Assembly (NCBI RefSeq): GCF_000744655.1
Contig: NZ_JQMJ01000004.1
Location: 6,634,001 to 6,698,000, forward strand
Length of the DNA stretch: 64,000 nt
From: Streptacidiphilus rugosus AM-16
GTDB lineage: Bacteria > Actinomycetota > Actinomycetes > Streptomycetales > Streptomycetaceae
Direction: 5' to 3'
Program-made: the position numbers and the translations under genes
The notes under the pieces: model-generated
The model's database searches: none
Seen by the model: the letters and a program-made list of their open reading frames with translations, nothing else
What the model was told of the DNA's origin: nothing
Shown: positions 15,286-17,419 of the stretch, piece after piece
How the letters are laid out: every line of letters starts with the position of its first letter
Position numbering within the stretch: position 1 is the first letter of the stretch

Positions 15286-16683
15286 CTAGGAGTACGTGTG
15301 CGCCGGGCCCTGGGGGGTGAGGTGGAGGGTGTGGACGTTGCCGCGGAGGGGGCGGTCGACCGTCAGGGAGAGGACGTGGCGGACCGGGTCCCACTCACTG
15401 ACGTAGTCCGTGTCGAACTCGATCTGCGGTCCGCGCGGGAAGTCCGACGGCGGCAGGTAGATCTCGGTCGGGCCGCTCACGTCCGTCTCGTCGCGGAACT
15501 GGAGGGTGAAGACCAGCGTGCCCTTGTCGTAGTCGAACTCCAGCGGCACCCCCGCGATCTCGCGCGGGTACGCGGTCTCCAGAACCCCCGCGATGTCGGC
15601 CGGTTTGCCCTTCTGCGCCCACGGCGACCACGCGCCGGGCGTCGCACTGTAGAACGCCGCGCCGATCATCAGCTGGTCGATCAGCTGCTGGACGTGGTCC
15701 AGGTACAGGTGCGCGCCCGGAGTCGTGGTGTCCAGGCCCCAGGCGCCCAGCAGCACCGGCGCGTCGAGCCGTTTCGCCGTGCGGGCGACCTGGATCCCCC
15801 AGGAGGCGAGCGCCCGGTCCGTGGGAAAGACGCTGCCGCCCGTGTAGTGGCCGTCGGGGTCCAGCGGCGCGGGGAACAGCTGCGGGGCGTACCCGATCCT
15901 GGCCTCGCCACGGCGCGGATCGTTCAGGTACGGCAGTGAACTCGGCAGGCCCCAGTCCGCCGTGACCGCCGCAGGCTCGACGAAGAGCCAGTGCACCGGG
16001 TCGACGGTGCGCAGCGCGTCGATCAGTCGTTGGTAGCAGCGCGCCAGAGGGCCGGTCTCGAAGGCCGCGCCCTCGACCGAGCCGCCCCAAGGGCGGTCGA
16101 GAAGGTCGTAGCCGAGGATCGGGTCGGGCCGTAGACCGTGCTGGGTCACGTAGGCGCCGAAGTAGCGGGCGACGTGCTGCCAGGCGGCCGCATAGCGGTC
16201 CTGCAGTCCTGGCTCGTCGCCGCGGGTGCGCCAGAACTCGTCCGCGGCGCGGGTGCGGGCCTCGGTGGCCGCCGGCGTTCCGGCCTGCGGCGGCGCCGGG
16301 GCCGGGCCGTAGCCGTCCTGCTGCATCGCCAGCACCACGTGGAAGCGCTGGCCGGCGTACCAGGCGATCTTCTGGGCGATCCCGGCCAGGTACGCGTCGT
16401 CGTAGTGTCCCGGCCGCGGCTCGACGCGGCTCCAGCTCAGCGTGAGCCGGGTGAGGTCGTCGCCGAGGAGCCCGTACTCCGACGCGGCGGCTCGCGCCGA
16501 GGAGACCGCGTCGTCGCCGCCGGAGTCCAGTCCGTAGAGGATGAGCGTCCGCCCCTGCGCGTCGGTGAGGAAGCGCTGCCCGGCCACCCCGTGGGCGGCC
16601 GGCGTGCCGACCCGCACCAGCAGCCCCGCCGCGCACAGGACCACCATCAGAAACACCAGCCACCGACGCTGACGACGCCGCAC
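15286..16683 (-). CDS. Degenerate endoglycoceramidase/GH5-like protein, membrane-anchored or secreted
   Basis: This 465-residue protein has one N-terminal hydrophobic segment (residues 8-25, after RRRQRR) as signal or anchor and a GH5/endoglycoceramidase-like barrel. The landmarks are recognisable but their catalytic residues are replaced. The acid/base motif NEP is DRP (Asp196-Arg197). The nucleophile motif (hGEFG) is LGAWG (Ala314). DMHQD is AMQQD (about 119-123). The YxPHxY-type motif is GYAPQLF. The C-terminal beta domain (about 370-465) is kept. It is therefore probably a pseudo-glycosidase, perhaps carbohydrate-binding. It converges on the D-aminoacylase gene and is divergent from a membrane protein gene. 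Confidence 0.75.
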   Translation of the reverse strand: MRRRQRRWLVFLMVVLCAAGLLVRVGTPAAHGVAGQRFLTDAQGRTLILYGLDSGGDDAVSSARAAASEYGLLGDDLTRLTLSWSRVEPRPGHYDDAYLAGIAQKIAWYAGQRFHVVLAMQQDGYGPAPAPPQAGTPAATEARTRAADEFWRTRGDEPGLQDRYAAAWQHVARYFGAYVTQHGLRPDPILGYDLLDRPWGGSVEGAAFETGPLARCYQRLIDALRTVDPVHWLFVEPAAVTADWGLPSSLPYLNDPRRGEARIGYAPQLFPAPLDPDGHYTGGSVFPTDRALASWGIQVARTAKRLDAPVLLGAWGLDTTTPGAHLYLDHVQQLIDQLMIGAAFYSATPGAWSPWAQKGKPADIAGVLETAYPREIAGVPLEFDYDKGTLVFTLQFRDETDVSGPTEIYLPPSDFPRGPQIEFDTDYVSEWDPVRHVLSLTVDRPLRGNVHTLHLTPQGPAHTYS

Positions 16684-16813
16684 CAGGCCTCCCCCCTGAG
16701 ACCTGCCGATCGTAGATCGTCCGCGCGGGCCGTCACAGCGGGAGGATGTCCTGATTCTGTATCAACATGCCTGCGCAGGAACGGCCGCTCACCAGGGCCA
16801 CTACAGTCCGCCC

Positions 16814-17419
16814 ATGGCCGTCCCCGACTCCTCGCGCCCGCTCCGCGACCGCGTCCGCCTCGCCCTGCCGCTCCTGGACCGCCCGCGCGCCGTCCTGTCG
16901 GCCGGTGCGGGCACGGCGGTGCTGCTGGTGCTGGCGCTGGGCACGGACACCCTGTGGCTCCGGCTGACGGAGGTCTTCGGGTCGGCACTGCGCCCGGCGG
17001 CCCTGGGTGTGCCGCTCTTCCTCCCCGGGCTGCGGCCGAACCCGCGCGGGGAGACGAGCTGGGCCTTCACCTGTTGCGAGGACTTCGCCGCGCTGCTGCT
17101 GGTCGGCGTCGTCGCCCTGGTCCTGCGCAAGCACACCCGGCGACACCCCTACGCGTCCGTGGCCCACCTCTTCCTGACCGGCTGGCGGGCCGTGGTGCTC
17201 GGCGGCGCGGCGGCCGGGGTGTTCCGCGGCCTGACCGAGGCGCGCATGGTGGCGGCGGGACCGCTGGGCTGGACCGGCTACCCGGTCCTGGGGGCGCTGG
17301 CGGGGCTCGGCTGGGGCCTGCTGCTGGGCTGGACCGTGGGGCTCGTGGTGGCCCTGACGGGCGCCGTCAATGTCCGGCATGGCGAAAATCACGAGGCGCG
17401 TTGGATGGCAAGGCGTTAG
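16814..17419 (+). CDS. Hypothetical membrane protein
   Basis: I do not recognise this 201-residue protein. It has about four hydrophobic helices (around residues 30-46, 90-105, 123-142 and 150-187). A Pro/Arg-rich extramembrane stretch sits between the first and second (LFLPGLRPNPRGETSW), and there is a CC pair (TCCEDF). The last helices are rich in Gly/Leu. The stop is 12 bases before the ATG of the aminotransferase gene, so the two are probably co-transcribed. Codon usage matches its neighbours, supporting a real gene. Confidence 0.6.
   Translation: MAVPDSSRPLRDRVRLALPLLDRPRAVLSAGAGTAVLLVLALGTDTLWLRLTEVFGSALRPAALGVPLFLPGLRPNPRGETSWAFTCCEDFAALLLVGVVALVLRKHTRRHPYASVAHLFLTGWRAVVLGGAAAGVFRGLTEARMVAAGPLGWTGYPVLGALAGLGWGLLLGWTVGLVVALTGAVNVRHGENHEARWMARR

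Follow-up and report, generated by a model that had tools for sequence, protein, structure and literature searches.

Glycoside hydrolases that lack catalysis have been described before, but often in groups that offer no close active sister for comparison. Within family GH5, they include GH5_30, a Xanthomonas subgroup derived from GH5_1, GH5_8-like lipoproteins, and the C. thermocellum biosensor Rsi24C-GH5, a cellulose-binding module that has been reused to sense polysaccharides outside the cell and is linked to an anti-sigma factor (PMC3526467, section 31); none of these groups comes from GH5_28, the subfamily to which the Rhodococcus sp. endoglycoceramidase (EGC) II structure 2OSX has been assigned (PMC3526467). 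EGC II (PDB 2osx, 2osw, and 2oyk) possesses a full catalytic set and hydrolyses glycosphingolipids. Its engineered variant D314Y/E351S is a working glycosphingolipid-synthesising mutant, and the enzyme engineered to carry Ser in place of the nucleophile uses glycosyl fluorides for glycolipid synthesis (PMC10796935). In a survey of the CAZymes of Streptacidiphilus, GH5 genes were counted and endoglycoceramidase was not mentioned (PMC7601586).

Here we describe an EGC II-like protein from Streptacidiphilus rugosus AM-16, encoded in the window (the whole 64,000-nucleotide stretch of DNA that was analyzed; Table 1). Like the non-catalytic GH5 groups listed above, it has retained the GH5 module after the loss of catalytic residues, but, unlike in those groups, the case concerns a stand-alone enzyme at a conserved locus, with 2 inactive clades beside an intact sister. 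The minus-strand reading frame runs from 16683 to 15286 with no internal stops, and the plus strand has 2 stops across the same interval. The protein matches EGC II over its full length (phmmer against the PDB, E about 1e-73; 34% to 37% identity) and contains the GH5 C-terminal domain (PF18564, E 2e-11). In its AlphaFold model (35 homologues; mean pLDDT 85.8, pTM 0.85), the best solved-structure matches are EGC II chains, with Z 47.3 and an rmsd of 2.0 over 404 residues for 2oyk; for the intact orthologue from S. jeojiense, the predicted model reached a pLDDT of 88.7. We call the window protein GH5_28-like by homology to EGC II, which extends over whole-protein sequence and fold and includes the C-terminal domain, whereas NCBIfam NF051847, the endoglycoceramidase I equivalog, gave 51.5 bits against a cut-off of 700 bits. 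The intact frame of 465 codons, the retained fold, and the C-terminal beta domain described in an initial annotation of this DNA are thus borne out.

Table 1. Features of the pseudo-endoglycoceramidase locus in window coordinates
Feature	Position	Strand	Basis
Predicted pseudo-endoglycoceramidase, 465 aa, EGC II / GH5_28-like	15286..16683	-	GTG start at 16683; homology, domain, model
C-terminal beta domain, residues 371-453 (PF18564)	15325..15573	-	Domain match, omega, model
Residue 345: conserved Trp of YWS replaced by Tyr (five clade I relatives have Cys)	15649..15651	-	Alignment
Residue 314: nucleophile Glu replaced by Ala	15742..15744	-	Alignment
Residues 268-270: HLY of PHLY replaced by QLF	15874..15882	-	Alignment
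Residues 196-197: Asn-Glu (acid/base) of NEP replaced by Asp-Arg	16093..16098	-	Alignment
Residues ~124-148: shortened loop after AMQQD	16240..16314	-	Alignment; pLDDT <50 at 126-136
Residue 121: conserved His of DMHQD replaced by Gln	16321..16323	-	Alignment
Hydrophobic N-terminal stretch (residues 9-27), a membrane anchor or signal peptide	16603..16659	-	Hydropathy; helix 2-23 in model
130 bp between the divergent gene pair, presumed to serve both as promoter region	16684..16813	.	Sequence only
Membrane protein of about 200 aa with 3-5 TM, uncharacterised; its gene lies divergently beside EGC-II-type genes across Actinomycetes	16814..17419	+	Profile and genome searches

A gapless alignment of the catalytic motifs shows that NEP of EGC II reads DRP in the window protein, LGEFG reads LGAWG, DMHQD reads AMQQD, and PHLY reads PQLF. 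Of the 8 positions that form the GH5 core, 7 are replaced (His to Gln121, Asn to Asp196, acid/base Glu to Arg197, His to Gln268, Tyr to Phe270, nucleophile Glu to Ala314, and Trp to Tyr345) and only Arg79 survives, whereas all 8 are invariant among 33 intact relatives. Unlike EGC II, the window protein also lacks part of the loop that follows AMQQD, which comprises 24 residues (23 to 24 in clade I, defined below) as opposed to 42 in the intact sister species and is thus about 18 residues shorter. The 4 replaced motifs listed in the initial annotation were therefore correctly identified, but the extent of the loss was underestimated. Arg197 and Ala314 stand in place of the catalytic Glu pair of an active endoglycoceramidase (EC 3.2.1.123), whose supporting core residues are likewise gone except for Arg79; as read from the sequence, the loss of the glutamate pair is certain. 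The same annotation had considered that other glutamates might occupy the catalytic positions. Among the newly conserved acidic residues of clades I and II, surveyed on sequences rather than coordinates, Asp196 (in place of Asn) is the only one at a catalytic position, and no new Glu is found there. Chance or an alignment slip is ruled out, as the motif positions are ungapped and invariant in the intact relatives, and so is sequencing error, as the catalytic loss recurs in 9 other Streptacidiphilus genomes.

The gene was found in all 14 Streptacidiphilus genomes. Its surroundings are conserved in 12 further Streptacidiphilus and 4 Streptomyces genomes, in the order D-Ser-dehydratase-like gene, D-aminoacylase, EGC, membrane protein, aminotransferase, and PEPCK. 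The orthologues fall into 3 clades. Clade I (n = 7) includes the window genome, S. fuscans, S. jiangxiensis, S. anmyonensis, S. pinicola, S. melanogenes, and S. neutrinimicus and is characterized by DRP, Ala or Gly at the nucleophile position, PQL, AMxQD, and the short loop. Clade II (n = 3; genomes G001, G011, and G012) displays [SG]QP, SW[ST], PQLY, and DM[EQ]Q with a full-length loop. In clade III (n = 3; S. carbonis, S. jeojiense, and G010), the catalytic residues are intact and the protein is seemingly a working enzyme. The acid/base position is fixed within the inactive clades, with DR in 7/7 members of clade I and Q accompanied by S in 3/3 members of clade II, so that of the 2 motifs singled out in the initial annotation, DRP is conserved throughout clade I, whereas AWG is not, since the nucleophile position holds either Ala or Gly; neither extends to clade II, with QP and S instead, or to clade III. 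The intact orthologues of clade III and Streptomyces (L041, L042, L010, and L032-L034) share the locus and gene order with the window protein, to which they are 43% to 56% identical, but, unlike it, carry all catalytic motifs. Outside the genus, 30/30 relatives are intact (from Streptomyces, Nonomuraea, Thermoactinospora, Nocardiopsis, Prescottella/Rhodococcus, Agromyces, Microbacterium, Janibacter, and Aeromicrobium). The losses are concentrated at the core, because 5 of the 8 core columns are lost in every member of clade I versus 14 of the 85 other invariant columns (Fisher p 0.008), and in clade II the corresponding numbers are 5/8 and 9/85 (Fisher p 0.0016). Streptacidiphilus sp. 4-A2 (L074 / G013), which is clade-II-like and has the only broken EGC copy, was left out of the counts; the break is probably an assembly error, because the genes adjoining EGC are frameshifted as well.

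Catalysis was probably lost twice within Streptacidiphilus, separately in clades I and II. The tree of 4 neighbouring genes (1933 columns) has the topology (I,(II,III)), supported at 100/99, and rejects both a clade of I and II (p-AU 0.00065) and one of I and III (p 0.010). This rejection favours 2 losses, helped by the difference in the replacement residues, which are Arg with Ala or Gly in clade I and Gln with Ser in clade II. The EGC tree built from all columns groups clades I and II (96/88), but once the motif and loop columns are removed, clade II pairs with clade III (94/54) and none of the 3 groupings is rejected; that clades I and II come together only when the motif columns are kept is what convergence predicts. 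The conclusion depends on the neighbour-gene tree, because a single loss is not rejected by the EGC gene alone (p 0.41). The His-to-Gln change in PHxY, which is common to both clades, could be parallel or an early shared first step. A single ancestral loss with restoration of clade III by transfer is not favoured, as clade III nests inside the genus with and without the motif columns.

The inactive proteins are under purifying selection. Codon models yielded omega values of 0.082 for clade I, 0.102 for clade II, 0.115 for the intact clade III, and 0.062 for Streptomyces, and fixing omega at 1 worsened the fit by 509 (clade I) and 170 (clade II) log-likelihood units. Nei-Gojobori counting gave dN/dS of 0.24 to 0.32 (I), 0.34 to 0.41 (II), and 0.29 to 0.34 (III). 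Both methods place the inactive clades under about as much constraint as the intact one, and the inactive copies are therefore not decaying. The EGC reading frame is open in every usable genome; with the catalytic motifs lost, the fold and frame kept, and dN/dS well below 1, the protein fits the description of a pseudoenzyme under purifying selection.

The gene pair, too, has persisted. A gene for a membrane protein lies immediately upstream of, and divergent from, the EGC gene at 37/39 EGC-II-type loci from several actinobacterial families, as detected by profile search, including those of the EGC II relatives in Prescottella/Rhodococcus hoagii. The 2 loci without a detectable neighbour of this kind are L065 (Prescottella defluvii) and L046 (Streptomyces silaceus); the second EGC copy of P. 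defluvii (L066) has one. Across 298 Streptomycetaceae genomes, the membrane protein was found in 15, all of them EGC carriers (14 Streptacidiphilus and the Streptomyces-like G201). In a sample of 395 genomes from the class, the membrane protein and an EGC-II-type gene (E below 1e-170) occurred in the same 6 genomes, adjoining in every case. A seventh genome, G118, gave a far weaker EGC match (E 7e-83), to a more distant type of protein, and none to the membrane protein. The family is recognizable by the motif P[SA]A[LI]GxPxxxPxLRxxPxG and has no name in Pfam or NCBIfam; matches to signal peptidase II and exosortase were weak (E 0.03-1) and were not used. Both genes are retained in the catalytically inactive lineages, and the 2 behave as one module that outlives the catalytic residues. 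Near-perfect co-occurrence, adjacency, and joint retention suggest that the products interact physically, although co-occurrence is no proof of interaction and the adjacency could instead reflect shared regulation. The membrane protein is thus a candidate partner of endoglycoceramidases in general, and we found no mention of such a partner in the open-licence papers searched.

Collectively, these results make it likely that the window encodes a membrane-anchored pseudo-endoglycoceramidase which has been retained for a non-catalytic role, probably together with the adjoining membrane protein, and that catalysis was lost twice in the genus. The protein would be extracytoplasmic, with its N-terminal hydrophobic helix as anchor or export signal. 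By homology and structure prediction it has an EGC-II-type fold, and with 7 of 8 core residues replaced it lacks the residues for retaining (two-glutamate) hydrolysis. The well-supported step in this scheme is that catalysis would have been shed in clade I (Arg as acid/base, Ala or Gly as nucleophile, shortened loop) and again in clade II (Gln, Ser, loop kept), with clade III intact at the same locus. Selection would then retain the protein since its useful job is something other than hydrolysis, most likely that of a structural or ligand-binding subunit in a cell-surface pair with the divergent membrane protein; we propose a shared non-catalytic function mainly because the gene pair survives the loss of the catalytic residues. 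The ligand might perhaps still be a glycolipid in clade II, which has kept the loop, Tyr, and Trp, whereas clade I, having lost the loop and, in most members, the pocket Trp, is a doubtful candidate for glycan binding in the former cleft. More tentatively, the EGC-II-type protein and the membrane protein could form a two-component cell-surface system that is primarily non-catalytic (ligand capture or signalling), in which hydrolysis was dispensable and was shed independently by 2 lineages. The initial annotation had argued for selection rather than decay and for a non-enzymatic role; the former agrees with the dN/dS of the inactive clades, which are constrained like clade III, and the latter with purifying selection that is undiminished although the catalytic glutamates are lost from the sequence. 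The new findings are that catalysis was probably lost twice in a single genus, that intact orthologues occupy the same locus in sister species, that purifying selection has not weakened, and that the membrane-protein neighbour is nearly constant. Because the inactive and intact versions share a chromosomal position within one genus, allele swaps offer a way to test what selects for a dead enzyme, and the unnamed membrane protein, which pairs with EGC-II-type genes almost without exception, may bear on active endoglycoceramidases too.

An intact EGC-like paralogue (L002; NEP, GEWG, DFHQD) is encoded elsewhere in the window genome (G000:C4:1680997-1682568) and may have relieved this locus of the need for catalysis. 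The inactive copy might then regulate the paralogue as a prozyme-like pseudoenzyme, or might have lost catalysis simply as the paralogue took over. The distribution of the paralogue follows the inactive clades, as it is present in 7/7 members of clade I, 3/4 of clade II (with G013 counted as II), and 0/3 of the intact clade III, but this pattern rests on 3 clades rather than on many independent events, and clade II genome G001 has no paralogue, yet its own EGC copy is predicted to be inactive. Moreover, identity to the paralogue is no higher than about 33%, the two genes are unlinked, and their products are not known to form a complex. We regard regulation or redundancy as an unlikely explanation.

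Less probable still is a neofunctionalised enzyme, in which the altered pocket (Asp196/Arg197 in clade I, Gln/Ser in clade II) would run a different reaction, such as that of a transferase or synthase. New chemistry would be compatible with the sequences, in that the substituted acid/base positions are themselves conserved and the Ser of clade II lies exactly where the engineered EGC II glycosynthase E351S carries its Ser. However, that enzyme keeps the acid/base Glu, which is missing from both clades, as are the supporting His and Asn; in clade I the nucleophile position varies between Ala and Gly, and no newly conserved Glu has appeared at the lost positions. A natural glycosynthase is thus rejected, with Arg (clade I) or Gln (clade II) in place of the acid/base Glu, and because this Glu is missing, clade II should not act as the engineered glycosynthase does.

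Decay, with the gene a pseudogene on its way out and retained by chance, is highly improbable: although the EGC branches of clade I are longer than those of neighbouring genes, the frames are open, omega (0.08-0.13 by maximum likelihood overall, 0.24-0.41 by counting) resembles that of the intact clade, and the sole broken copy is the one from the frameshifted 4-A2 assembly. The omega set excludes the clade II fit for the D-Ser dehydratase, which was stuck at its start value, and the GY fit of the window genome, S. fuscans, and S. jiangxiensis, in which the tree length was inflated. For the close three-species subset of clade I, omega was 0.076-0.117 depending on the model, and within clade I the C-terminal domain had an omega of 0.055 versus 0.082 for the barrel.
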